From the NCBI GenBank assembly GCA_011772205.1, contig WVZY01000077.1, positions 1 to 64,000 of the forward strand: 64,000 nucleotides of DNA. Direction: 5' to 3'. Positions 1,812 through 38,181 of the stretch are shown one piece after another. The notes beneath the pieces are model-generated. The model was not told where the DNA came from. It made no database searches and saw nothing but the letters and a program-made list of their open reading frames with translations. Position numbers and translations under genes: made by a program. The DNA is from Candidatus Latescibacterota bacterium (GTDB lineage Bacteria > Krumholzibacteriota > Krumholzibacteriia > WVZY01). The first letter of the stretch is position 1, and every line of letters begins with the position of its first letter.

Positions 1812-4358
1812 CTACTTCAGAAGAGCCATCTTCTTTGTTAACACCTTACCACCAGCTTTCAGGCAGTAGAAGTAGATACCTGAGCTGACGGGAACGCCCT
1901 GATGATCACTTCCATTCCAAGAATATTCCTTATACCCTGCATCAAGTATTCCATGCACAAGAGTTCGCACCAATTTTCCTTCTATGTTGTAGATCTTCAA
2001 GCTCGCGGTCCCTTTTTTAGGCAACGTAAACGAAATCGTCGTGGATGGATTAAACGGATTGGGATAGTTCTGGTACAAAGCCAGATTCCCAGTTCCAACC
2101 GTCACCGTGGCTGGAACTGAGCGGATTTCCGAGCCGTCCGCGAGGACCACCACAAGAACGTATTCGTGTTGCTCCCCCGGGGAAACCGAACGGTCCACGA
2201 ACGACCGCGCGTCCACCGGCAGTAAGGCCCGGCCGCTCACCACGGTGGTGTTGGCACCCTCGCTATCCCGCCGCAGGACCTGGAATCCTAGAACCTCATC
2301 GTCCGAAATGGTCTCCCACGACACGCGTACTGCACCGCTCTCCTCGACGGCGTCGAACCATCTGATCATCGTCGCAACCAGCGGTCCAAACTCGAAGATG
2401 TACAATCCGTCCGGCCCGTCGGCCAGAAAGACGTTATCGTAGTCCACGCACGTCCCTTCCGCGGACTGGCCGGTACTGTACGCCGTCACGTTGGTGGGTT
2501 GGGTGGGATCGCCGACATCCACGACTCGGACACCCGCCTCACCCTCGGATAGAAATGCGTACTTGCCTGCGATGGTGATCCAATTCGTCGACCCGGTGGT
2601 GCCCATCGATCCGACTTCGGTGGGTGCAGCTGGATCGGACACGTCGACGACCACTAGCCCGAGCGAGCCGTCGGCGATGTACGCGTAGCTCCCGGATACC
2701 GCGACGTCTCTCGTCCCTCCCGTGGTTGTATAGAACCCCACCTCGACCGGCTGCGCGGGTGGTAAGACCTCGATGATCTGCAGTCCCTTACTGGGAAGGG
2801 CGACGTACAAGTGGCTTCCGACCATCTGCATGCGTGCACTTGAGAAAGTGTCCCGACCGGTAAACATCCCGACGACCTGCGGCGATTGTGGATCCGAGAC
2901 GTCGAGCAGGTATATCCCGTAAGACCGTACCTTGATCGCAGCGTAGTCCCCGTCGACGGCGACGTTCAACACGTAGGGAGGCGATGCGCCCGTTTGCGGG
3001 GGGACGTAGTGACCCACTTCCACGGCACCCGTTGGGGTCACCTCCAGGATCCGCAGACCCATATGGCGGTTGGCTACATATAGCAGGTCTCCGACGGCGA
3101 GCACTTCGTGCACGTATCCCCCGTTCTGGTACGGCAAGAGTTCGACTGGATTCGAGGGGGTTGTGGCATCGATGATCCGAAGGCCAGACATCCCGCTCCC
3201 TGCGCACGCCAGCCGGGTTCCTCCGCTGTGAACCACTTGCACGTTTTGCAACGGTTCAACAGCTTCATACGTCGCGGCAATCTGCGGATCATCGAGGTTC
3301 GACACGTTCATGATCTTCGTCCACTGCCCGTGGCTGGTGTAGATTAAGTTGTCGCCGAATTCCATCTCCACGATTTCTTTGCCCGTAGGCTCCGTCCCGC
3401 GAAGTACGGGGGAGGTTCTGTCAGAAATATCGGCCAGCGTCAGCCAACCCGTATCCTTGTCGAAGGAAACCACATCACCCTTGAGGGATACGTCGGAAGG
3501 AAAAACGACGGCCCCGAGGTTGTTAGCGTTGATCTTGTTGGGATGGTCGGGGTCGGCTAGGCTAAATGTGAATAACATCCCCCAAGGTACTACGCCGTCG
3601 TCAACTCCGCCCGTTACGTACGCGTAATCGCCGTCTACGGCGACATCCTCGTACCATCCGGATGGCTGGCTCGTCGATCCCCGTTCGACCGGGTTGACAG
3701 GGTCGGTGATATCGATGACGATCAGGCGCGGCCAGCTAGTCGCACAAACGATATCACCCGAGCACGCGATGTGTCGGAGAGTTTCGGACATAGGAAACAC
3801 CCCAACCAGTACTGGTGACACAGGATTGCTGATGTCCACGACCCCAAGACCACCAGCGGCGAGGTAGATTTGGTCGCCCCGAATCGCAAGATCCGAAACA
3901 TACGGTAAGGCGAGGCTGTGGACAAAAGTGGGCAGCGACGGATCCGATATGTCGACGACTCCCATAGCTCCGGTTCGTGACCCGATGAAGTAAACATAAT
4001 CGCCTCTAAGCCCCGACAAACGTGGCACATCAGGTAGCAATTCGCGACCAATCCTCACCGGGTTGCCTTCGTCCGTGCAATCCAAGACGTCCAGGTAGGC
4101 GCCGTACCCGACATACGCGGTCCTTCCGTCCGCCGCGACGGTAATGCTCTGCCCAATTGCCAACCGGCCCAGAAGAAAGAGCTGCGGGTACGCGGCCTGA
4201 AACGAAGCAGGGGTGGCCGAAGGAACACGCACCCGACCGGCGTTTTGAAAAGCCGAACGAGTGTCGTTCCGCGCCGCTGAACGCATGGTCGTTATGATCA
4301 GCAGAACAAGGATTATTGCGGCAAGCGGCGCCGCCATCCTGCCTTGCGGAAGCGTCAC
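1812..4358 (-). CDS. LVIVD-repeat surface protein with C-terminal FlgD-like sorting domain
   Basis: Encodes 848 residues from a GTG start with GGAGG six bases upstream. Residues 8-27 form a signal or anchor helix. From about residue 60 to 650 there are many repeats of roughly 45 residues of the form 'GDYAYV..G..GL.VVDVSDP..P..VG', the LVIVD pattern thought to fold as a beta-propeller. Residues about 665-750 look like a fibronectin-type segment (VRVSWET..., YVLVVVL). The last 85 residues carry YQNYPNPFNPSTTISF, LKIYN, SSGIYFY and a terminal KKMALLK, the FlgD-like domain used as a sorting or anchoring module in FCB-group secreted proteins. It is probably exported to the surface. It lies left of the tRNA-Thr repeat pair. 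Confidence 0.88.
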   Translation of the reverse strand: MTLPQGRMAAPLAAIILVLLIITTMRSAARNDTRSAFQNAGRVRVPSATPASFQAAYPQLFLLGRLAIGQSITVAADGRTAYVGYGAYLDVLDCTDEGNPVRIGRELLPDVPRLSGLRGDYVYFIGSRTGAMGVVDISDPSLPTFVHSLALPYVSDLAIRGDQIYLAAGGLGVVDISNPVSPVLVGVFPMSETLRHIACSGDIVCATSWPRLIVIDITDPVNPVERGSTSQPSGWYEDVAVDGDYAYVTGGVDDGVVPWGMLFTFSLADPDHPNKINANNLGAVVFPSDVSLKGDVVSFDKDTGWLTLADISDRTSPVLRGTEPTGKEIVEMEFGDNLIYTSHGQWTKIMNVSNLDDPQIAATYEAVEPLQNVQVVHSGGTRLACAGSGMSGLRIIDATTPSNPVELLPYQNGGYVHEVLAVGDLLYVANRHMGLRILEVTPTGAVEVGHYVPPQTGASPPYVLNVAVDGDYAAIKVRSYGIYLLDVSDPQSPQVVGMFTGRDTFSSARMQMVGSHLYVALPSKGLQIIEVLPPAQPVEVGFYTTTGGTRDVAVSGSYAYIADGSLGLVVVDVSDPAAPTEVGSMGTTGSTNWITIAGKYAFLSEGEAGVRVVDVGDPTQPTNVTAYSTGQSAEGTCVDYDNVFLADGPDGLYIFEFGPLVATMIRWFDAVEESGAVRVSWETISDDEVLGFQVLRRDSEGANTTVVSGRALLPVDARSFVDRSVSPGEQHEYVLVVVLADGSEIRSVPATVTVGTGNLALYQNYPNPFNPSTTISFTLPKKGTASLKIYNIEGKLVRTLVHGILDAGYKEYSWNGSDHQGVPVSSGIYFYCLKAGGKVLTKKMALLK

Positions 4359-25839: not shown

Positions 25840-28800
25840 TTACTTTAGCAATATCATCTTTCTTGTTTTAACAAACTTCTTCGTTACGAGCTTGTAGAAA
25901 TACACGCCGCTCGAGACCGGCTGTCCTGCATCGTTGCGGGCGTTCCAGCCTTTGGCATATTCACCCGCGGGATTCTCCTCGTTTACCAGCGTCTTCACCA
26001 GCTGCCCGGCGACGTTGTAGATTTTCAACGTCACATGGGCCCGTTCCTTGATCGAGTATTTGATTGTTGTGCTCGGATTGAATGGGTTCGGGTAGTTCTG
26101 GGCGAGGCTGTTTGTATAGTAGGGGGTGGCGTCTGCGCCTGAAGGATCTTCGACGGGTAGGCTAAATAGATGCCGCAGGACACTGACCAGGTGATCCACA
26201 CGATCAGGCACTCCTGCAGGAACATCGTCACGGATATAATGGAAGCTAAAGCCTGAGAGGACCACGGCAACCGGGTTGCCCAGCGCGTTCAACGTGTCGT
26301 ACGCCACAACGGCACCGTCGTTCGCAGCGCCCGAGCCCCCGTACGTCATCTCCAGGGTCGTGCTCGCGACCGGCCGGATCACATCGAAGTCATTGATGCC
26401 CGGACAGCCGCCGTAGACAACGATCGTGTCTTCCTCGAGTGGAACACCGTGATCGAAGATCCCGCCATCCTCACCGATCACCAGCGGCGATATAGAGAAG
26501 CTCACCGTGTGATCATCGTCCACCAACTGGTACGGAATGTACGTGCTGATGAACTGGGACGAGGACGGATTCGTCAGCGTTTCCCATTCTGAGGCCATGT
26601 TATCGCCGGAGAAGTAGATACCGGCTCCTACTGGGTCCGGATGCTGATCCATGAAGAAATAGAGCATCGCGAAGTCATCCGTCTCGTTCGCGCTCATGTC
26701 ACCAACCGTACCTCTGTTGAGGTTACCGGAGTTCCAGATAATCTTCCGGTAGTTCGGGAATAGCTGGTTTTGAACACTCCACATACGACCTGTAAGACCA
26801 TTTCCGACCAACGAAGACGGCCCGCGCTTATCGAAGCGGTCGACCCAGTCCATGATCCCTATCATCTCGAACGCGGAATTGAAGTATGGCTCGGCACCTC
26901 TGCCGCTGAATTGATCAACATATAGGATGTTTCCGCCGTATCCACTGGGCAGGATCTGCATCTCCATCGGGGCCGCGCAAGCCTCTTCGATATCGTCCAC
27001 TGTGCCGGTGAATTGGCTCCACCACGTCGAAGTCACGTTGGCATCCGTCGCACCGAAAAAGAACCACAAGGTGTCTCCGTTGGTGAAGAAATGATCATTC
27101 ACATCGATGCAAAACCTGTCAGGCGCAGGACCGGTGCGAGGACCGCTATGCTCTGTAAAACACGTGTCGAGACGGAACTGATACCACTTCCGGCTGCCAC
27201 AGATCACCGAGTCGACAACCGGCCAGCGATAACTATCCTCCACGATCTTATCGAGCGGCATCGGCTTGCTCTGAGGATCGCGGGAGAGATAGAAATAAAC
27301 CGCAGATCCAAAACCGGTGTTCGGATCGCTCCCGAGGCCAAATGTCGGCTCGCTCACGGTAATGATTGCCGAGTCACCCGGTACATTATGTCCATCTAGA
27401 TAAGATGTGATGTCGATCGCCGCACCGATTCTGGCCGTCCCAAGGGAGTCACCCCCCTCGGGAAAGGTATCGTTGAAAAGATCGATGTCTCGAACGCTGA
27501 ATTGCGGACCCGTTACTCTGACCCGGATGAACCTCACGTTGTCGTAAAGAGGCCCATGCCTATGGCAGTCGGGTGGCTGGTAGGAATTGCAATAGAAACC
27601 GCACAGATCATAGCACCCGAGCGCGAGCTGTATCTGTTCAGCTCCCGGATCTATCAAGTCTGCATAACTTTCAATCCATCGATGCCACCTTGGACCGTAT
27701 CCGAAATTAATCCAAGCACGATCTCTCCAGTCTCCAGGGCAGCCCCCAATCCAGGTCCGGGCATGCCAGATAAAAGCGACCAATTCGGTGAAGGGATTGT
27801 CTTCGTATACGTCTATTTCGAAATACGCAGCATCTGCATCAGATGGAACGGGACTGCCGTAAATGTCCGTATCCCAATCAATGAGCGGCGACCAGATCTC
27901 ATTCGTGAGATAAAGCATTCCTCCATCCACTTCCTTCCCATATGGCACCGCTTTCTGTGCGGGATGGCCGGCACAAGCCATGTCGACCGTCGATCCCTTG
28001 AAGAATCCCCACAGAAAAGAGAGATTGTGCACGCAGGGATCTTCTTGGAGGACGGCACTTCCAGGGAACAGCCCCGCAAAATCCCCGTATGCCAGTTTGG
28101 CGTCTGCGTACCAATCTCCATCGGCTGTTGCCGTATCCCCAACCGCTTCCGATTCGAAATCCTGGTAGTCGAGCGTGCTCGCAGTATCCGACACGAGGAT
28201 GCTGTCGATGACGATCGCTCCATCGGAGTTATACATCCCATCTTGATCGGACCAGCCAGTATCGGAGTCAAAGCGGAAACGAAATATCACCGAACCATCG
28301 AGCGAGTCTGCCGGTACGGTCAGGTTTGCCGTGATGTCCCCGTCTCCATCCAAAGCGAGCAAGTCAACCCATGCACCGTCCTTATTTCTGTATTGAACAT
28401 ACGTGTAGTCGCAGTATGGCTCGGTATCATGATGTGCTTTGAAGGAGAGTGTCACATCGCCGCTGGTTGCAAATTCAACCGACTGGAACCGCTGGCCCCA
28501 TGAATTTCCATACCCGGGCAGTTTCTTGTACGAGCAGAGATAGGTATCCGAGGCATTCGGCCTGGCGCCGCACCACAGGGACTGGTTCCCTTCGATTGGC
28601 ACCAATCCGCCAAAGTCGCCACCATTCAATCCTGAAAAATCGTCCACATGGAAAAACACTCCCATAGGAGCTGTGAGATCAACGCCGAACCAGCCCTGCG
28701 GATCAGCCATGCCCGGGCCATCAAAATCAAAATCTGCCAGCACAAATGTTTCCACAACAGCTGTAGCGAAAAGCTCCCTCGCATCCAGCGGCATGTCGCT

Positions 28801-28932
28801 TCCTGTGTTGTACTCGTGAAAGATGTATCTCTTAGGGCTGCTCTTTTCAGGAGCCTTTCGCGCGAAGCTCCCCCAGGAAACCAGCATCAATGTCAACACC
28901 GCAATAAAAAGGCAAATCCATCGCCGTTTCAT
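25840..28932 (-). CDS. Giant exported surface protein, paralogue 1, with FlgD-like C-terminus
   Basis: Encodes 1,030 residues; AAGGAGG precedes the ATG. A signal peptide covers residues 1-25. Two beta-sandwich-like modules follow (about 50-260, 'FDFDGPGMADPQGWFGVDLT', 'FHVDDFSGLNGGDFGGLVP', 'SLWCGARP'; and about 260-480). Next is a domain with 'FSVRDIDLFNDTFPEGGDS' and 'FCIDVNDHFFTNGDTLWFFFGA'. About 650-900 is a Rossmann-like segment ('NILYVDQFSGRGAEPYFNSAF', 'VDRFDKRGPSS', 'KIIWNSGNL', 'AGIYFSGDNM') resembling GATase-like folds. The C-terminus has NYPNPFNPSTTIKYS and ends TRKMILLK. It is very close to the proteins at 31529 and 35068. Function unknown; secretion to the cell surface is inferred. 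Confidence 0.88.
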   Translation of the reverse strand: MKRRWICLFIAVLTLMLVSWGSFARKAPEKSSPKRYIFHEYNTGSDMPLDARELFATAVVETFVLADFDFDGPGMADPQGWFGVDLTAPMGVFFHVDDFSGLNGGDFGGLVPIEGNQSLWCGARPNASDTYLCSYKKLPGYGNSWGQRFQSVEFATSGDVTLSFKAHHDTEPYCDYTYVQYRNKDGAWVDLLALDGDGDITANLTVPADSLDGSVIFRFRFDSDTGWSDQDGMYNSDGAIVIDSILVSDTASTLDYQDFESEAVGDTATADGDWYADAKLAYGDFAGLFPGSAVLQEDPCVHNLSFLWGFFKGSTVDMACAGHPAQKAVPYGKEVDGGMLYLTNEIWSPLIDWDTDIYGSPVPSDADAAYFEIDVYEDNPFTELVAFIWHARTWIGGCPGDWRDRAWINFGYGPRWHRWIESYADLIDPGAEQIQLALGCYDLCGFYCNSYQPPDCHRHGPLYDNVRFIRVRVTGPQFSVRDIDLFNDTFPEGGDSLGTARIGAAIDITSYLDGHNVPGDSAIITVSEPTFGLGSDPNTGFGSAVYFYLSRDPQSKPMPLDKIVEDSYRWPVVDSVICGSRKWYQFRLDTCFTEHSGPRTGPAPDRFCIDVNDHFFTNGDTLWFFFGATDANVTSTWWSQFTGTVDDIEEACAAPMEMQILPSGYGGNILYVDQFSGRGAEPYFNSAFEMIGIMDWVDRFDKRGPSSLVGNGLTGRMWSVQNQLFPNYRKIIWNSGNLNRGTVGDMSANETDDFAMLYFFMDQHPDPVGAGIYFSGDNMASEWETLTNPSSSQFISTYIPYQLVDDDHTVSFSISPLVIGEDGGIFDHGVPLEEDTIVVYGGCPGINDFDVIRPVASTTLEMTYGGSGAANDGAVVAYDTLNALGNPVAVVLSGFSFHYIRDDVPAGVPDRVDHLVSVLRHLFSLPVEDPSGADATPYYTNSLAQNYPNPFNPSTTIKYSIKERAHVTLKIYNVAGQLVKTLVNEENPAGEYAKGWNARNDAGQPVSSGVYFYKLVTKKFVKTRKMILLK

Positions 28933-29469
28933 CAGCTTCCTCCTTATTGAAGAGAATCACCCATGAATTTGAAAAGCAGTAACTCCCGTATTCCCCGCCA
29001 AATGAACTTGTACTCCTTGCTGGAAATGATGGAATCAACATTTCGCGGGCTGCAGTTCAATGCGAGGCGCTGTATGAAGTCGCGGCAGTGATGTAAAGAA
29101 AAATGAGAGAAGAGATCAGTCGGTGAAGCAATCCAGGTAGTCAACGAGAATGCACCTCGCACCCTATGTTTGCAGGTGCGCGGGAGAGGTGCACGACAGA
29201 ACATCTGCCTTCCCCCCCAGGTAGTCGGCTGATTCATTATATTACCATAGATTACTTTAATTTTCAAGGAATCACTTAATTCGCAGCGCCCTCGACCTCC
29301 TGCGAAAAAATCTCCTTGTCCTGCTCCAGCGACATCCCTCAGAATCCCCACGTAAGAGCCGATCTCACAGGCGTCTGAGCCCTGACAGAGGTGCTCGACC
29401 TCCTGGCCGGCTTCTTGCAATCAGAAAAATGATAACCCATTGTGAATAAAAATCATCCAGTAGTCAGCG
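28933..29469. other. Intergenic region between paralogue 1 and the GspE/PilB gene
   Basis: It holds the promoter-like site 29239-29267 reading leftward into paralogue 1 with a leader of about 300 bases. Only unconvincing frames cross it; the minus-strand frame 28944-29420 has no ribosome-binding site and no recognisable content. No clear promoter was found for the ATPase gene on the plus strand. Confidence 0.45.
29239..29267 (-). promoter_or_regulatory. Promoter-like site upstream of paralogue 1
   Basis: On the minus strand TTGAAA (29262-29267), a 17-base spacer and TAATAT (29239-29244), with TATGG just before the -10. The spacing and the TATGG element resemble the site upstream of paralogue 3. 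Confidence 0.45.
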
Positions 29470-31281
29470 ATGCGTGAAAACCAGCATAACGCTTCCCTTG
29501 AGAGTGACTTTACGCTCGAAGCCGTGGCCGGCGCGCTCGGGCGCTCCGGTTTTCTCAGCCTCCCGCAAATCAAAGAGATATCCAAGTCTTCCGTCGTGAA
29601 GCGAGCACACCTCAGGAACAAGCTCAAAACCAAGGAGTCCGATAAGCCTTTCGTGTCACCGGTCGAGATCATTGCCGAATTTGGCTTTCCGAGCACGAAT
29701 CCCCGGCGGGATCAAATGGACGAAGCCGAGATCTGCGAGGCGCTCTCTAGAACGATGAATGTCCCGTTCGTTCGGATCGATCCTCTGAAGCTCGACGTAA
29801 AAAGTGTTTGCAGCATCGTTTCCAAACCGTTTGCCCGAAAACATCTTCTCGTCCCCATCAAGATCAAAGGCGGGGCGCTCACCGTTGCCATGGTGAATCC
29901 ATTCGACCGCGAAATGATCAACAGCCTCGAAGACGTTACCGGCTGCACGGTGGTGCCCGTACTCGGGATGAGGAGCGAGATTCTAAAAACGATCAACGAG
30001 GTCTTTGCGTTCGAGCACAGCCTGATGAAAGCAGAGAAGCTCCGGGATGCCGGCTATGACCTGGGAAATCTCGAACAGCTCGCCGAAATGATGACCGAGG
30101 AGGAAATCGACGCCTCCGATAAACACATCATCAAAGCCGTCGACCTGCTATTCCAGTATGCATATGAACAGCGGGCGAGCGACATCCATCTCGAGCCGAA
30201 GAGGGACAAAGGCGTGGTGCGCCTTCGAATCGACGGCAGGCTCCATGACACCCACTCGATTCCCAAAAAGATCTACCCTTCTTTCGTTTCTCGAATCAAG
30301 ATCATGGCACGGATGGACATCGCTGAGAAGCGCAAGCCTCAAGACGGACGCATCAAAACGAGCTCAAAAGATGCCGAGGTGGAGCTCCGTGTTTCCATTG
30401 TTCCCGTCGCATTCGGGGAAAAGATCGTCATCCGCATATTCGATCCCAGCGTTCTCATGCAGGATCTCTCCTCGCTCGGGTTTTTCCCCGATCAGCTGGA
30501 GGCGTTCCAGAGATTTTTACACCGTCCATACGGCATCATCCTCGTCACCGGACCGACGGGGAGTGGGAAAACGACGACCCTTTACTCGGCGCTTCGGTAT
30601 CTGTCGAATCCGGAAGTCAACATTACGACGATCGAGGATCCCATCGAGATGATCTATGAGCCGTTCAATCAGATCGCCGTTCAGTCCCAGATTGGCATCA
30701 CGTTCTCCACCGCTTTGAGGAACGTCCTCCGTCAGGACCCGGATATTATTATGGTCGGAGAGATTCGCGATCGAGAGACGGCCGAGTATGCGATCCAGGC
30801 GGCTCTCACGGGCCATCTGGTTCTTACGACACTCCACACGAACAACGCCGTTGGAGCCGTTACGCGGCTTACGGACTTGGGAGTGGAACCGTTTCTCATT
30901 GCATCTACGGCTCTCGGTGTGATTGCCCAGCGCCTTGTCCGGATGGTGTGCAAAGAGTGCGATGTTCCCGCCCAGATCTCTGAAGAAGAGAAACGTCTCC
31001 TTTGCCTAGAAGATGACGTTGATCTTTCTAACTTGCGCGCAGGAAAAGGATGCGAGAAGTGCCGCAATACGGGCTATAAAGGACGCACAGGGGTTTACGA
31101 AGTTTTGGAAGCAACGGAGGAAATTCGCCTGCTAGTCAGGGACTGTGCGGATGAGAAGGACATCGAAAGAGCTGCGCGGCGCTCTCAGATGAGACCGCTC
31201 CTCTCGAGCGCGATAGAGAATCTCATTGCCGGAAAAACGACGGTTGAAGAGATTTTGCGCGTCGTTCCGCTGGCCGGATAA
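29470..31281 (+). CDS. GspE/PilB-type secretion or pilus assembly ATPase
   Basis: Encodes 603 residues. An N-terminal MshE-type domain (about 85-185, 'FARKHLLVPIKIKGGALTVAMVNPFD') precedes the ATPase core. Walker A is GPTGSGKTTT (361-370). Asp-box, Walker B ('DPDIIMVGEIRD') and His-box ('LTGHLVLTTLHTNNA') follow. A four-cysteine zinc site is at 'VCKECD' and 'CEKCRNTG'. This is the full motor ATPase of type II secretion or type IV pili. No other Gsp/Pil gene is near. It lies on the opposite strand between two of the giant surface-protein genes. The start ATG lacks a strong ribosome-binding site. Confidence 0.93.
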   Translation: MRENQHNASLESDFTLEAVAGALGRSGFLSLPQIKEISKSSVVKRAHLRNKLKTKESDKPFVSPVEIIAEFGFPSTNPRRDQMDEAEICEALSRTMNVPFVRIDPLKLDVKSVCSIVSKPFARKHLLVPIKIKGGALTVAMVNPFDREMINSLEDVTGCTVVPVLGMRSEILKTINEVFAFEHSLMKAEKLRDAGYDLGNLEQLAEMMTEEEIDASDKHIIKAVDLLFQYAYEQRASDIHLEPKRDKGVVRLRIDGRLHDTHSIPKKIYPSFVSRIKIMARMDIAEKRKPQDGRIKTSSKDAEVELRVSIVPVAFGEKIVIRIFDPSVLMQDLSSLGFFPDQLEAFQRFLHRPYGIILVTGPTGSGKTTTLYSALRYLSNPEVNITTIEDPIEMIYEPFNQIAVQSQIGITFSTALRNVLRQDPDIIMVGEIRDRETAEYAIQAALTGHLVLTTLHTNNAVGAVTRLTDLGVEPFLIASTALGVIAQRLVRMVCKECDVPAQISEEEKRLLCLEDDVDLSNLRAGKGCEKCRNTGYKGRTGVYEVLEATEEIRLLVRDCADEKDIERAARRSQMRPLLSSAIENLIAGKTTVEEILRVVPLAG

Positions 31282-31528
31282 AATTCGTTCGTCCACTATC
31301 CGGATACGCACCCTACGGCCTATTGCTTGGCAAAGACGATACGACCACTGGCTGCGTAAACTTCGCACAATCGCTGGGCAGGCAAACACCATACAGCCGC
31401 TGTCCGGGCAAGCAAAACTTATAGATGCGACAATACGAAGGGGCACTCCGCGCCTCAACATCTCGCTGAAATCGCGTCGTACCCCCTCGCACGATCTTAA
31501 CCAGGCAAATCTTCCCTCTGCTCTCCCC

Positions 31529-34500
31529 CTACTTCAAAAGTATCATTTTCTTCGTCTGCGTGAAATTCTTCGTCACAATTCTGTAGAAGTACACGCCACT
31601 GGAGACCGGATTGCCCTCGTCGTTGCGGCCATTCCATCCCTTGGTGTATTCTCCCGCAGGCTTCTCCTCGTTCACCAGCCTCCTCACCAGCTGACCCGCC
31701 ACGTTGTAGACCTTCAAGGACACATGCGCACGCTCCTTGATCGAGTACTCTATGGTGGTAATCGGATTGAACGGGTTCGGGTAGTTCTGGGCGAGGCTGT
31801 TCGTGTACCGTGGCGTTTCGCCAATTCCCGTGGGATCCGAGGGAAATGATACCAGGTGCCGGATGATATCGACCAAATGATCGTCACGATCCGATAGCGG
31901 TGCAGGAACATCGTCGCGGATGTAGTGGAAGCTGAATCCAGAGAGTACTACGCTGACCCGGTTCCCCAGTGCGTTCAACGTGTCGAACGCCACAACGGCA
32001 CCGTCGGTGGCCAAACCTGTACCACCATAGGTCATCTCCAGACTCGTTCCTCCTGCCGGCTGAATCACATCGAAGTCATTGATCGTCGGACAGCCGCCGT
32101 AGACAACGATCGTATCTTCCTCGTCCGGCACACCATGGTCGAAGATTCCTCCATCCTCGCCAATCACCAGCGGCGACTTGCCGTGGCTGCCGGTATGATC
32201 GCCGCTGACCAGATTGTGCGAAATGAACTTGTTGATGAAGGCTGACGAGGAGGGATTGGTCAAGCCGGCCCATTCCTCGGCCATGTCATCACCGGAGAAG
32301 TAGATCCCTTCCATGGTCGGATTTGGATGCTGATCGAGGAAGAAGTCGAGCATCGCGAAATCATCCGCTTTAATATTGGAGCCATCCCCCACCGTCCCGC
32401 TGGAAAGATCTCCCGAATTCCATATGATCAGTTGGTAATTCGGGTGGAGCTGCTGTGCAACGTCTCGCACGTGATATCCTAAAGCATCTGCCGATAAAGG
32501 ACCCACAAATGCACCACGCTTATCGAATCGATCAACTAGATGATCGATCTCCAATATTTCAAACGCGGAATCAAAGTATGGCTGAGCTCCACCAGCGTTG
32601 AATTGATCGACATAGAGAATATCTCCCCCTCTCGCCGGACCTGCACCTGGGAGAATCTGCATCTCCATAGGCGCCGAGGCAGCCTCTGCGATATCCCATG
32701 TCGTACCGGATCCCTGACTCCAGTAGGTTTCCTCGCCCAATGTGTTCTCAGCACCAAAGAAGTAGTACAGCGTATCGCCGTTTGTAAAGAGGTGGTCGTT
32801 TACATCGATACAGAATCCGTTAACGCGGATGGATACGCACGAACCATTGGACCTGGTACAAGCCGTATCGCAACGGAATTGATACCATTTCGTGCCGCTA
32901 ATGACCGTTGAATCGACCAGAGGCCAGCGGAAGCCGTCTTCTTCCAGCATATCCCCCATTTTCCCTGGCTGGCTCGGTGGATCGATTGAAAGGTAGCAGT
33001 AGACGGCCGAGCCAAATCCGCTTTTCGGATCGGGCTCCTTGAGACCGGCGTCCGGATCGTAGCAAGTTACAACCGCTGAATCGCCAGGTATAATGTTTGG
33101 GTCACTATAGGCTATATCGTGCGCCGCATCGATACGACCTGTTCCTAAAGATGTCCCATTCTCGGGGAACGTATCCTGGAAAAGGTCTAAGTCACGGGCA
33201 CTCCACTGGGGGCCGTTCGTCGAAATACGCCGGATCTCGACATTATCGAACAGCGGCGAATGGCTGTGGCAGGGATCGAGAGAACCGTCAAAAAACCATT
33301 GCATATCCACAACGCCCAACGCAATCTGTATGTGAGAAGCGCCCGGATCGATATATTCACCTAAGGTGTAGGTGCTTCTGGACCAATCCTTGCGGGGACC
33401 ATAGTAGATTCCAGATCCCTGGTCTTTCCACTGACCGGGACATCCATCTTTCCAGGATCGAACGTCCCATGTGTAATAGACGTAGAGGCCTGGCAGATCC
33501 CGGTACACATCGAACGATAACTCGATTGTCGATCCAACTCCGGCCAGAGCAACCGGTGGTGACCAGATCGAATTAGTGATGTATTGGTCATACTCGTTCT
33601 TTTTTGGAACCGCAATCTGTTCGGGGTGGCCGCCACAAGCGTAGGTTTCAGTAGATCCCATGATAAACGCCCACATGCAGCTGTAATTCCAATGGCAGGG
33701 ATCTTCCTGCAGCAACGCTGAGCCTGGAAAGAGACCGGCAAAATCCCCGTACCCTGACTTTACGCAGCATTCCCAGTCGCCGTCCGTGGTGGCCAGATCG
33801 CCAGGGGACTCATCCTCGAAATCCTCGAAGTCATAAGTAGTGAGAGCCGTCTGTACGGTAATGCTGTCAACCAGTACGGCCCCGTCCGTGTTCAAGAAGC
33901 CGTCTTGATCTGAATACGCACCATCGGATCCGAAGTGGAAACGGATTTTTACGAAACCATCGTGTCCAGCAGGGATGGCGTCGGTCCGCAGCTGTTTGCT
34001 CCCAGTACCGTCGAATGTCGCGATGTTAACCCAATCATCACTGGCGATATCATCAATGTTTTCTATGGAGTCGCACGAGGTATTCGTCGCATATTCGAGG
34101 TATGTTTGGTCAAATCCCCCTTCAGAATCCCACGCGATGAGATAGCTGATAGCAATCGCCTCAGTATCCGGCACCTCAATACACTTGAAGCACCACCCTT
34201 GATCCCAGTCGTTTCCATACCCAGGCAGTGCGGCGTAGACACATAAGACAGGATCTGCGGTATCCGGCCGCGCGCCGCACCAGGCCGATTGGTCGCCTTC
34301 CAAAGGCACTAGGAGGCCGAAGTCCCCTCCGTCAAGACCTGTAAAATCATCGACATGGAAGTAGCAGCCAAGTGCTGCTGTCCAGTCTTGACCGGTCCAA
34401 CCTTCGTTCGTACAAAACACACCTCCCACATCAAATGTCCAGGAGCCAAGGATGACCGTGTCCGCCTGTAAGTATGACCTGAGTCCCTGCTCTTCCAAAG

Positions 34501-34651
34501 GACGATCCAAATCCAGGACGCTTAAAGGCTCTGGCTGTATTTCCCAGTTGGCTGGATTTCGCTCTTGAGAGACTTTGCGCGCAGATAGAAGCGATGCTAG
34601 CAAAGAGATCATCACCAAAGCGAACAACGTTTTTCTCGTGAAGGCGCTCAT
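31529..34651 (-). CDS. Giant exported surface protein, paralogue 2, with FlgD-like C-terminus
   Basis: Encodes 1,040 residues; AAGGAGG lies upstream of the ATG. Signal peptide residues 1-24. Same order as its paralogues: two beta-sandwich-like modules ('GCYFHVDDFTGLDGGDFGLLVP', 'DFEDFEDESPGDLATTDGDWEC'), the 'WSARDLDLFQDTFPENG' domain, a Rossmann-like domain ('DILYVDQFNAGGAQPYFDSAF', 'LIIWNSGDL', 'EGIYFSGDDM') and the FlgD-like tail ending KKMILLK. It has more cysteines than paralogue 1, in conserved pairs such as 'QGWCFKCIEV' and 'WECCVKSG', which suggests disulfides after export. Closest to paralogue 3, especially in the N-terminal half. Confidence 0.88.
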   Translation of the reverse strand: MSAFTRKTLFALVMISLLASLLSARKVSQERNPANWEIQPEPLSVLDLDRPLEEQGLRSYLQADTVILGSWTFDVGGVFCTNEGWTGQDWTAALGCYFHVDDFTGLDGGDFGLLVPLEGDQSAWCGARPDTADPVLCVYAALPGYGNDWDQGWCFKCIEVPDTEAIAISYLIAWDSEGGFDQTYLEYATNTSCDSIENIDDIASDDWVNIATFDGTGSKQLRTDAIPAGHDGFVKIRFHFGSDGAYSDQDGFLNTDGAVLVDSITVQTALTTYDFEDFEDESPGDLATTDGDWECCVKSGYGDFAGLFPGSALLQEDPCHWNYSCMWAFIMGSTETYACGGHPEQIAVPKKNEYDQYITNSIWSPPVALAGVGSTIELSFDVYRDLPGLYVYYTWDVRSWKDGCPGQWKDQGSGIYYGPRKDWSRSTYTLGEYIDPGASHIQIALGVVDMQWFFDGSLDPCHSHSPLFDNVEIRRISTNGPQWSARDLDLFQDTFPENGTSLGTGRIDAAHDIAYSDPNIIPGDSAVVTCYDPDAGLKEPDPKSGFGSAVYCYLSIDPPSQPGKMGDMLEEDGFRWPLVDSTVISGTKWYQFRCDTACTRSNGSCVSIRVNGFCIDVNDHLFTNGDTLYYFFGAENTLGEETYWSQGSGTTWDIAEAASAPMEMQILPGAGPARGGDILYVDQFNAGGAQPYFDSAFEILEIDHLVDRFDKRGAFVGPLSADALGYHVRDVAQQLHPNYQLIIWNSGDLSSGTVGDGSNIKADDFAMLDFFLDQHPNPTMEGIYFSGDDMAEEWAGLTNPSSSAFINKFISHNLVSGDHTGSHGKSPLVIGEDGGIFDHGVPDEEDTIVVYGGCPTINDFDVIQPAGGTSLEMTYGGTGLATDGAVVAFDTLNALGNRVSVVLSGFSFHYIRDDVPAPLSDRDDHLVDIIRHLVSFPSDPTGIGETPRYTNSLAQNYPNPFNPITTIEYSIKERAHVSLKVYNVAGQLVRRLVNEEKPAGEYTKGWNGRNDEGNPVSSGVYFYRIVTKNFTQTKKMILLK

Positions 34652-35067
34652 TTCCCGACCTCCTTCAAGAAATGATTGTGATGATAATGAAATAAGGGAT
34701 AGAAGAGGAAGAATTCTTGTAGCGGGCTTCTTTGAAGATTAAAGATCTCCACAAGCCGTTCCGGATCACGGGACAGGATCCAAATAGGACTGGGCTTGTG
34801 GGTCACGCAACGAAACAAGACCGCCGCCCCCGTTCAATAATTGAACTATTTTTTGTATCATATAATTCCGCAAAATTCAATCATATAAGACGCTAAATTC
34901 TTGGCTCGTCCTGCCCTGCAGTCATCTTATTAAATCAGAAACTTACTCGATCCTAACTGCTTACCACGTAGGCGATTTCCTGCATCCCATGCATTCAATC
35001 ATCAAAAAAACGTGGGCCTGTGAGTCAATCACCGGCCCTGGTTCCATCCCTCGATTCGAATCCATTC
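34652..35067. other. Intergenic region between paralogues 2 and 3
   Basis: No supported gene. It contains the ribosome-binding site of paralogue 2, an AT-rich tract near 34845-34900 and a perfect palindrome at 34832-34846. No promoter could be fixed with confidence. Confidence 0.45.
34832..34846. promoter_or_regulatory. Perfect palindrome, possible operator
   Basis: GTTCAAT-A-ATTGAAC, seven-base arms around one base, about 185 bases upstream of paralogue 2 and beside an AT-rich tract. The symmetry suits a dimeric regulator. The one-base centre makes a terminator unlikely. Confidence 0.35.
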
Positions 35068-38000
35068 TTACTTCAAAAGTATCATCTTCTTCGTCTGCGT
35101 GAAGTTCTTTGACACAATTCTGTAGAAGTACACGCCGCTGGAAACGGATTCACCCGCATCACTGCGGCCATTCCATCCCTTGGTGTATTCTCCAGCAGGC
35201 TTCTCCTCGTTCACCAGCGTCCTCACCAGCTGACCCGCCACGTTGTAGACATTCAAGGACACATGCGCGCGCTCCCTGATCGAGTACTTGATCGTCGTAC
35301 TCGGATTGAACGGGTTCGGGTAGTTCTGGGCGAGATCGTTCGTGTAGTGCGGTGTATCGCCTGCTCCAGTTACATCGGGAAGAGTATGCCTGAGAAAATG
35401 GAGAATGTCCCTCAAATGATCAATGCGATCTTTTACTCCCAAAGGAAGCCCATTATCTCGAATGCAGTGGTAGCTGAATCCGGAAAGCACCACCCCGATA
35501 GGATTCTCGAGCGCGTTCGTCGTTTCATATGACACCACGGCACCGTCGGTTGGATCATTCGTGCCGCTGTACGTCATTTCGAGATTTGCGCCGCCTAACG
35601 GCTCGATCATGTCGAAATCATTGATGATCGGGCAGCCGCCATAGGCAACGATCGAGTCGACACCCCAATAATAAGTGTCGAAGATCCCGCCAACCGTGCC
35701 CGCCACCAGCGGCGACACGTCATGGTTTACCGTATGGTCGCCCGTGACTAGGTTGTGCGGGATGAATTTGTCGATGAATTGAGTCGAAGAAATCCCCGTC
35801 AATTCCACCCACTCCTCGGCCATGTCATCACCGGAAAAGTATATTCCAGCACCTATTGTGTTTGGATGCTGATCGAGGAAGAAGTCGAGCATCGCGAAGT
35901 CGTCCGTTTCGTTCGCGCTCCCATCGCCTACCGTTCCATGGGCTAGGTCCCCCGAGTTCCAAATGATCGTTCTATAAAACGGATGCAGTTGGTTCCCGAT
36001 GTTGACGACACGGCCGGCAAGCCCGTTCCCAGCCAGCGAGGATGGTCCCCGCTTATCGAAACGGTCGACCTGCTCCCAAATCCCTGATTCCATGAGCGCC
36101 GTGTCGAAAAACGGCTGAGCTCCTCTCCCACTGAAGTTGTCGACGTAAAGGATGGTCCCGCCTCTCGCCGGACCAGCACCCGGCAGAATCTGCGTCTCCA
36201 TTGGTGCGGCGCAAGCTTCATTGATGTTGGCACCAATCCCGGAGCCCTCGCTCCAGTACGTCGTGTTCGCACCCGCATCGGTAGCACCAAAGAAGAACCA
36301 TAGAGTGTCCCCATTGGTGAAGAAGTGGTCGTTGACATCGATGCAAAACCGGTCGTAGACCGCTCCCATCCGTGGGCCGGAGCGCCCAGAAAAGACCGTA
36401 TCGCATCGGAACACATACCACTTCCGCCCATCGCAAATGACCGAATCCACTACCGGCCAGCGGAAGCCATCCTCCACTATTTTATCGAGCGGCATCGGTT
36501 TGCTACGAGGATCGCGGCAAAGATAGAAGTAGACGGCAGGTCCGAATCCGGTATAACCATCGATCCCAATGCCCAACTCTGGCTCGCTCACCATCACAAT
36601 TGCCGAGTCACCAGGAACATTGCTCCCGTCAAGATACTGTGTAATATCGATCGCCGCATCAACTCGCCCCGTTCCAACGGCCTGTCCATTTTCAGGGAAC
36701 GTGTCATTGAAAAGATCGATGTCCCGGACGCTCCACTGCGGGCCGACTGTGGAGATGCGCCGGATGATGACGTTATCAAAGAGTGGAGAATGACTGTGAC
36801 ACTCCCCTGGCGAACTAGAACTGCACCATAAAGGACACATATCGATAACACCAAGTTGGACCTGAAGGTGTGAAGCCCCGGGCGCAACCAGATCTCCCAC
36901 CCAGTTAACGGATGTCGCCCAATCCTTATGTGACCCATAATAAACGAAGCCCCGACCCTTCCAATGACTCGGACAATCATCGACGATGGACCGAATATGC
37001 CATGTATAGTAGATTAAGCTTGGAATGGGGAGATCTCGATAAACATCGAACACAAATTCAAAGTGGGATCCGGTACCAGTGATGGCCACCAATGGGGAGC
37101 GGATGGCGTTGTTTATGTACTGACCCTGTTCGTTCCCTTTCGGGACTGCCAGCTGCGCTGGAAATCCGCCGCACGCATATGATTCCGTGGAACCGTTGAC
37201 GAACGCCCACATGCACGTGAGATTCAACTTGCAGGGGTCTTCTTGGACCAGAGTAATTCCCGGGAAAAGACCGGCAAAATCGCCAAAGCCGGACATTATA
37301 CAGCATTCCCAGTCGCCATCCGTCGTGATGAGATCACCTGGAGATTCATCTTCAAAATCTTCGAAATCATAGACGGTCAGCGCAGTTCGAACGGTGATAC
37401 TGTCAACAATCACCGCACCATCTGTGTCCCACAAACCATCCTCGTCGGACCAGGCAGCATCGGACCTGAAACGGAATCGAATCTTCACATGACCCTCATG
37501 TCCTGCAGGGATGGTGCCGATCCTCAATTGTTTGCCCCCAACATCGTCGAAGGTCGCTAGGTTGACCCAATCATCGCCAAGGATATCATCTATGTTCTGC
37601 AAGGAGTCACATGTGCTCTTTGTCGCATACTCGAGGTATGTGCAGTCAAATCCCGGTTCAGAATCCCAGGCGATGAGATAGCTGATGGCAATCGCCTCGG
37701 TATCCGGAACATCGATGCACTTGAAACACCAACCCTGATCCCATGCATTTCCATATCCCGGAAGCTTGGCGTAACCACACAGGATCATGCTTGCCGTATC
37801 CGGTCGAGCTCCGCACCAGACTGATTGGTTGCCCTCAAGAGGAACTAAGTTACCGTAATCACCGCCGCCCAGACCAGCGAAGTCGTCGACATGAAAATAG
37901 CAACCGGATTGCTCCGTAAGATCATGCGTCGTCCAGCCTTGAGCATCGCACACAAGACCTGAATCGAACGTCCAATAGGCTAACACAAGCGTGTCCGCCA

Positions 38001-38181
38001 GAGCGGCAGATCGAGGAACCAGCACACCCGAGTGGTAATCCATATCGAGGGGGGTGGAATTATCGAGCCGCATTTTGGCACGCCCCGAGTTCGGACCTAC
38101 TGATGCCTCCCTCGCCATCGCCGACGCTATCGATACGGCAATGACGATCATCATCCCGAACATGAAAGCTCTTTTCTTCAT
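35068..38181 (-). CDS. Giant exported surface protein, paralogue 3, with FlgD-like C-terminus
   Basis: Encodes 1,037 residues; GGGAGGGC lies before the ATG. Signal peptide residues 1-23 (ends ASAMA). The modules match the other two: 'VLAYWTFDSG...GWTTHDL', 'GCYFHVDDFAGLGGGDYGNLVP', 'WSVRDIDLFNDTFPENG', 'FCIDVNDHFFTNGDTLWFF', 'TILYVDNFSGRGAQPFFDTAL', 'IIWNSGDLAHGTVGDG', 'AGIYFSGDDMAEEW'. The FlgD-like tail (about 955-1037) ends KKMILLK. The N-terminal half is closer to paralogue 2, while the 'RDPRSKPMPLDKIVED' part is closer to paralogue 1, a mosaic pattern. A strong promoter lies at 38403-38431. Confidence 0.88.
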   Translation of the reverse strand: MKKRAFMFGMMIVIAVSIASAMAREASVGPNSGRAKMRLDNSTPLDMDYHSGVLVPRSAALADTLVLAYWTFDSGLVCDAQGWTTHDLTEQSGCYFHVDDFAGLGGGDYGNLVPLEGNQSVWCGARPDTASMILCGYAKLPGYGNAWDQGWCFKCIDVPDTEAIAISYLIAWDSEPGFDCTYLEYATKSTCDSLQNIDDILGDDWVNLATFDDVGGKQLRIGTIPAGHEGHVKIRFRFRSDAAWSDEDGLWDTDGAVIVDSITVRTALTVYDFEDFEDESPGDLITTDGDWECCIMSGFGDFAGLFPGITLVQEDPCKLNLTCMWAFVNGSTESYACGGFPAQLAVPKGNEQGQYINNAIRSPLVAITGTGSHFEFVFDVYRDLPIPSLIYYTWHIRSIVDDCPSHWKGRGFVYYGSHKDWATSVNWVGDLVAPGASHLQVQLGVIDMCPLWCSSSSPGECHSHSPLFDNVIIRRISTVGPQWSVRDIDLFNDTFPENGQAVGTGRVDAAIDITQYLDGSNVPGDSAIVMVSEPELGIGIDGYTGFGPAVYFYLCRDPRSKPMPLDKIVEDGFRWPVVDSVICDGRKWYVFRCDTVFSGRSGPRMGAVYDRFCIDVNDHFFTNGDTLWFFFGATDAGANTTYWSEGSGIGANINEACAAPMETQILPGAGPARGGTILYVDNFSGRGAQPFFDTALMESGIWEQVDRFDKRGPSSLAGNGLAGRVVNIGNQLHPFYRTIIWNSGDLAHGTVGDGSANETDDFAMLDFFLDQHPNTIGAGIYFSGDDMAEEWVELTGISSTQFIDKFIPHNLVTGDHTVNHDVSPLVAGTVGGIFDTYYWGVDSIVAYGGCPIINDFDMIEPLGGANLEMTYSGTNDPTDGAVVSYETTNALENPIGVVLSGFSYHCIRDNGLPLGVKDRIDHLRDILHFLRHTLPDVTGAGDTPHYTNDLAQNYPNPFNPSTTIKYSIRERAHVSLNVYNVAGQLVRTLVNEEKPAGEYTKGWNGRSDAGESVSSGVYFYRIVSKNFTQTKKMILLK

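Follow-up and report, generated by a model that had tools for sequence, protein, structure and literature searches.

The closest described counterparts of the proteins considered here are Bacteroidota proteins exported as T9SS type A cargo, such as the gingipains RgpA/Kgp and HagA of Porphyromonas gingivalis. These multi-domain exoproteins have a signal peptide, beta jelly-roll binding modules and, at the C-terminus, a type A sorting domain. In P. gingivalis, surface proteins have been reported to undergo domain rearrangement and gene conversion (PMC5266723). A second point of comparison is the GATase/GIFT-like alpha/beta domain of secreted FCB proteins; for GIFT domains, sugar binding has been proposed (PMC7226087). 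No description of the T9SS or its cargo in Krumholzibacteriota was found in the literature that we searched.

Here, we analyzed a window of 64,000 nucleotides (the whole stretch of DNA under study, from contig WVZY01000077.1) belonging to a Krumholzibacteriota genome of 4.13 Mb in 81 contigs. Three proteins encoded in this window resemble the Bacteroidota cargo in their putative signal peptide, multi-domain build, predicted beta jelly-roll modules and type A sorting tail, and differ from the P. gingivalis proteins in that no catalytic domain was detected and the middle modules are others. On balance, the sequences suggest that they are probably T9SS-exported, non-enzymatic surface proteins that bind glycans or matrix and have been diversified by intragenomic recombination.

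Organization of the three paralogues

The positions of the three proteins and their modules are shown in Table 1, in which copy 3 serves as the reference for module numbering. Copies 1-3 have a common module order: a hydrophobic N-terminal leader (read by eye from the sequence; a putative signal peptide), two N-terminal modules (N1 and N2), the RDIDLFNDTFPE domain (C1), an alpha/beta domain (C2) and a FlgD_ig / Por_Secre_tail region. Both copy 2 and copy 3 could be aligned end to end with copy 1 at 56-57% identity, and the mean column identity among the three copies was 75%. The first-pass annotation of this DNA had described three large paralogues of one module order lying in tandem. The open reading frames, their lengths and the end-to-end alignment all bear out the common architecture; the tandem arrangement holds for copies 2 and 3, but not for copies 1 and 2, which are split by a gene on the opposite strand. 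This gene, outside the family, encodes a PilB/GspE-type ATPase with MshEN and stands alone between the two copies. The flanking genes in the window resemble housekeeping genes (putative RNase HII, TrmD, RimM and Ffh, as read from the translations), and no recurring companion gene was seen at those of the other copies whose gene contexts were inspected. An ORF of 848 aa at positions 1812-4358 of the window (minus strand) also carries a T9SS-type sorting tail (match at 1815-2081), and the rest of it is unrelated to the family.

Table 1. Features of the three paralogues and of the intervening gene (positions in the window)
Feature	Position	Strand	Remark
Copy 1, whole protein (1030 aa)	25840..28932	-	Chimeric
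Copy 1, N module (N1 + N2)	27523..28755	-	N1 possibly InhA/MAM-like
Copy 1, C1 (RDIDLFNDTFPE) domain	26944..27513	-	
Copy 1, C2 alpha/beta domain	26167..26937	-	Predicted GATase/GIFT-like
Copy 1, FlgD_ig / T9SS type A sorting tail	25852..26094	-	Family models
GspE/PilB-type ATPase (603 aa)	29470..31281	+	MshEN + T2SSE; between copies 1 and 2, outside the family
Copy 2, whole protein (1040 aa)	31529..34651	-	Full module set
Copy 2, C2 alpha/beta domain	31853..32629	-	
Copy 2, T9SS type A sorting tail	31541..31783	-	Family models
Copy 3, whole protein (1037 aa)	35068..38181	-	Full module set
Copy 3, predicted signal peptide (aa 1-23)	38113..38181	-	Hydrophobic leader read from sequence
Copy 3, N1 (aa 62-268), possible InhA-like MAM-type beta-sandwich	37378..37998	-	PF20773 in 4/30 homologues; low-confidence model
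Copy 3, N2 (aa 269-476), second beta-rich module	36754..37377	-	
Copy 3, C1 RDIDLFNDTFPE domain (aa 478-668)	36178..36750	-	No known family
Copy 3, C2 alpha/beta domain (aa 669-932)	35386..36177	-	Predicted GATase/GIFT-like; invariant Cys in GGCP
Copy 3, FlgD_ig / T9SS type A sorting tail (aa 942-1037)	35071..35358	-	Family models

Sorting tail and export machinery

The tails of copies 1-3 matched TIGR04183 with 43.6-44.5 bits (cut-off 23) and PF18962 with 30-34 bits (cut-off 27). Homologues of SprA (504 bits) and of the PorU sortase (553 bits; cut-off 420) could be identified in the same genome, together with PorV-family proteins, the best match of which adjoins the PorU gene on contig C8. 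Surface export is thus supported by the T9SS tail and by the SprA, PorU and PorV homologues, and copies 1-3 are probably T9SS type A cargo, judging from tail and machinery genes. In addition, a profile search revealed ~95 further sorting-tail matches across the genome, which points to heavy use of the T9SS route. It should be noted that eight PorV/PorQ-family proteins scored above the cut-off within this single genome; typical Bacteroidota have one or two, far fewer than eight.

Distribution and copy number of the family

All three paralogues of the first-pass annotation are present, but they are not the only full-length ones in the genome. A profile search found six intact full-length copies in total, and full-length architectures outside the window lie on contigs C73, C69, C11, C9 and C33, those on C9 and C33 being broken by one in-frame TAG and by a frame break, respectively. 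Partial architectures occur on contigs C6, C25 and C59. Further investigation of related genomes showed that all 58 relatives searched match the full profile, many of them through the common sorting tail only. The C module (C1 plus C2) could be identified in 75 of 80 genomes of Krumholzibacteriota, representing 41 of 43 genera, and arrays of two or three copies appear again in five relatives (G004, G002, G045, G049 and G028). Named genomes of other FCB phyla gave few and weak matches, confined to the C2 alpha/beta domain, in a thin sample (by-phylum retrieval yielded 1 and 4 genomes) that leaves absence outside the phylum unproved. No relatives were found among viral contigs. The distribution of the C module, together with the T9SS tail and machinery, is in line with the lineage-specific surface system that had been proposed from the window. 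The family is near phylum-wide and many-copy and has no Pfam model, and C1 and C2 are two unnamed domains. The broken copy on contig C33 (L230, 6568-9736) and a copy of G004 (L180, 456-3200), although from different genera, are interrupted at nearly the same place within C2 (about model residue 820), in one case through a frame break and in the other through a stop, possibly by chance.

The modules were also found in other combinations: G028 encodes a subtilase (Peptidase_S8) that carries the C module (L041), the N2-C half is fused to sialidase-type BNR repeats in the genome of the window (L013), and an N module is joined directly to the sorting tail in L059. Thus, these parts appear to behave as accessory modules, and the attachment of C modules to the subtilase and to the BNR protein argues for a binding role.

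Many similar long copies per genome, all of them with the sorting tail and under purifying selection (pairwise dN/dS 0.10-0.47 where computable), would also suit a structural role, in which the proteins would be the abundant, interchangeable building blocks of a surface layer or extracellular matrix and recombination would serve dosage or homogenisation only. We consider this unlikely, as the N modules are only 44-68% identical, unlike those of a single major lattice protein, and the copies are widely dispersed in unlike gene contexts.

Composition of the C and N modules

Neither profile searches nor PDB sequences matched the C1 RDIDLFNDTFPE domain to a known family. By contrast with C1, C2 matched an FCB GATase-like domain over 217 columns (hhalign probability 98.9, E 2.2e-17), a comparison that is partly circular because the FCB alignment was built from weak matches of the C2 alignment. 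The FCB domain matched by C2 occurs in secreted proteins from KSB1, Gemmatimonadota, Zixibacteria and Calditrichota, and in FCB phyla outside Krumholzibacteriota it is fused to M1, M6, Omp28 and others. The FCB domain is weakly near DUF4350, DUF4960, ThuA and IFT52-GIFT, and its link to GIFT is indirect (PDB 5fms, E 0.03; IFT52_GIFT, 0.16). By its whole-domain profile match, strand-helix order and near-C-terminal place, C2 is classified as a divergent member of this secreted GATase/GIFT-like alpha/beta domain. An internal Rossmann-like domain had at first been regarded as unusual in a secreted protein; the same alpha/beta domain is in fact common in secreted FCB proteins. A relationship of C2 to gingipain-type Peptidase C25 was tried and rejected (hhalign probability 0.2): C25 is likewise an alpha/beta domain in T9SS proteins and occurs elsewhere in the same genome, whereas C2 shows neither profile similarity to it nor a His-Gly / Cys dyad.

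What distinguishes C2 from the wider FCB family is an invariant cysteine in GGCP and a set of Asp residues. The cysteine is conserved in 30 of 30 homologues (C-module alignment, column 532), in which invariant Asp residues and the GG preceding the cysteine were also observed. It sits in a putatively extracellular domain without a conserved His. Such invariance could mean catalysis, against the non-enzymatic reading: C2 might be a cysteine hydrolase or amidotransferase acting on a surface substrate through the GGCP Cys and conserved Asp residues, and its fold superfamily includes enzymes with a Cys nucleophile. This seems rather improbable to us, since the Cys-His-Glu triad of class I glutamine amidotransferases could not be recognized (no His or Glu column of at least 60% in C2), the cysteine is absent at the equivalent place in the wider FCB family, and C2 has no profile relation to C25. 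Nor did the full architecture match any characterised protease or polymer-degrading family.

PF20773 (InhA-like_MAM) was detected on N1 in 4 of 30 N-module homologues (best E 3.5e-5) and also in L061; the single score seen, 21.2, lies below the gathering cut-off of 26.9, and copies 1-3 themselves have no match. N1 is thus weakly indicated to be InhA/MAM-like, and the family differs from InhA-like MAM proteins in having no M6 metalloprotease catalytic domain. An origin of N1 and N2 by duplication was rejected (hhalign probability 0.2), the two modules being not detectably homologous. AlphaFold models, built from the three window sequences only, were poor for both halves (mean pLDDT 45 for N and 37 for C). 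A Foldseek search with the low-confidence N model returned tandem CBM22, InhA (InhA2, 4yu5, prob 0.99) and the Kgp cleaved adhesin domain, all taken as weak support, and that with the low-confidence C model gave no informative match. A PDB sequence search with the N, C1 and C2 profiles yielded nothing or chance antibody matches. Because the structure models are poor, the folds named here are based on sequence and profile evidence.

Mosaicism between dispersed paralogues

Comparison of the copies within the genome revealed that similarity changes along the genes. At the DNA level, copy 1 and the copy on contig C69 are 95-97% identical over C2, 50-66% over N and most of C1, and ~75% downstream of the C2 block. 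Within this block (approximately aa 656-891; dS 0.105), 91% of polymorphic third positions agree, compared with 35% outside, and the observed value was reached in 0 of 1000 permutations. For the copies on contigs C69 and C11, identity is 93-96% over the final stretch, which begins near residue 895, and mostly ~57-69% over the rest of the gene. With the copy on contig C73, copy 1 shares its C1 at 76-81% DNA identity (83% at the amino acid level). The C2 of copy 1 is 91% identical to a copy of its own genome, whereas the best match of its N module is in other genera (47%, versus 44% in its own genome). On these comparisons, copy 1 is a chimera, with N nearer to other genera and the C modules nearer to paralogues of the same genome.

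The module trees (N, C1, C2 and tail) gave a similar picture, as the AU test rejected 11 of 12 cross-comparisons, the exception being that N tolerates the tail tree. In G028, whose genome is a single contig, the copy at 429k combines a first part like that of the 523k copy (91%) with a last part like that of the 1248k copy (89%). Dispersed paralogues thus contain blocks of 90-97% DNA identity within genes that are otherwise 50-65% identical, and some breakpoints are near module borders (~477, 653-664 and 895-909), others inside C2. Two observations speak against assembly chimeras: identity in the shared blocks is 89-97%, short of 100%, and the blocks are internal to contigs. The mosaicism is significant, given the permutation and tree tests and its recurrence in the second, single-contig genome, and modules have been exchanged between paralogues within a genome. 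It should be noted that no exchange was found in one G049 array; mosaicism is thus not universal. Mosaicism among dispersed paralogues is a new result of this analysis: the work on P. gingivalis compared strains (PMC5266723), whereas here exchange is seen among dispersed paralogues in one genome of an uncultured phylum.

With dN/dS values of 0.10-0.47, there was no sign of diversifying selection, so of the antigen-like variation suggested in the first-pass annotation the exchange between paralogues stands and the selective component does not. Antigenic variation in which silent copies would donate modules to expressed ones, evading phage, predators or hosts, would fit the module mosaicism and the broken copies on contigs C9 and C33, but we give it little credence, because most copies are intact, have their own starts and are dispersed, no positive selection was seen, and neither an expression site nor, within the window, a programmed recombination element was found.

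Proposed function and implications

If these are indeed exported binding proteins diversified by recombination, each would be made with a signal peptide and then directed by its sorting tail to SprA, through which it would cross the outer membrane, after which the PorU/PorV machinery would trim it and either anchor or release it. The mature protein would act as a binder, presumably without catalysis, whose contacts with glycans or matrix are probably made by the C1/C2 pair together with the beta-sandwich modules N1 (MAM/InhA-like) and N2. The large paralogous set, partly in arrays and partly dispersed, would be diversified by gene conversion or module exchange.

More tentatively, the family may constitute a near phylum-wide combinatorial repertoire of T9SS-exported binders in which recombination within the genome routinely reassorts the binding and C-terminal modules, with C1 as a new family and C2 as a new branch of the GIFT-like fold distinguished by its Cys; we regard this as possible rather than likely. 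In either case, C1 and C2 offer two unnamed domains for characterisation. If true, the broader proposal would mean that the uncultured phylum Krumholzibacteriota possesses a bacterial diversity-generating surface system, and that combinatorial surface diversification through T9SS cargo occurs not only in oral pathogens but also in uncultured, free-living bacteria.
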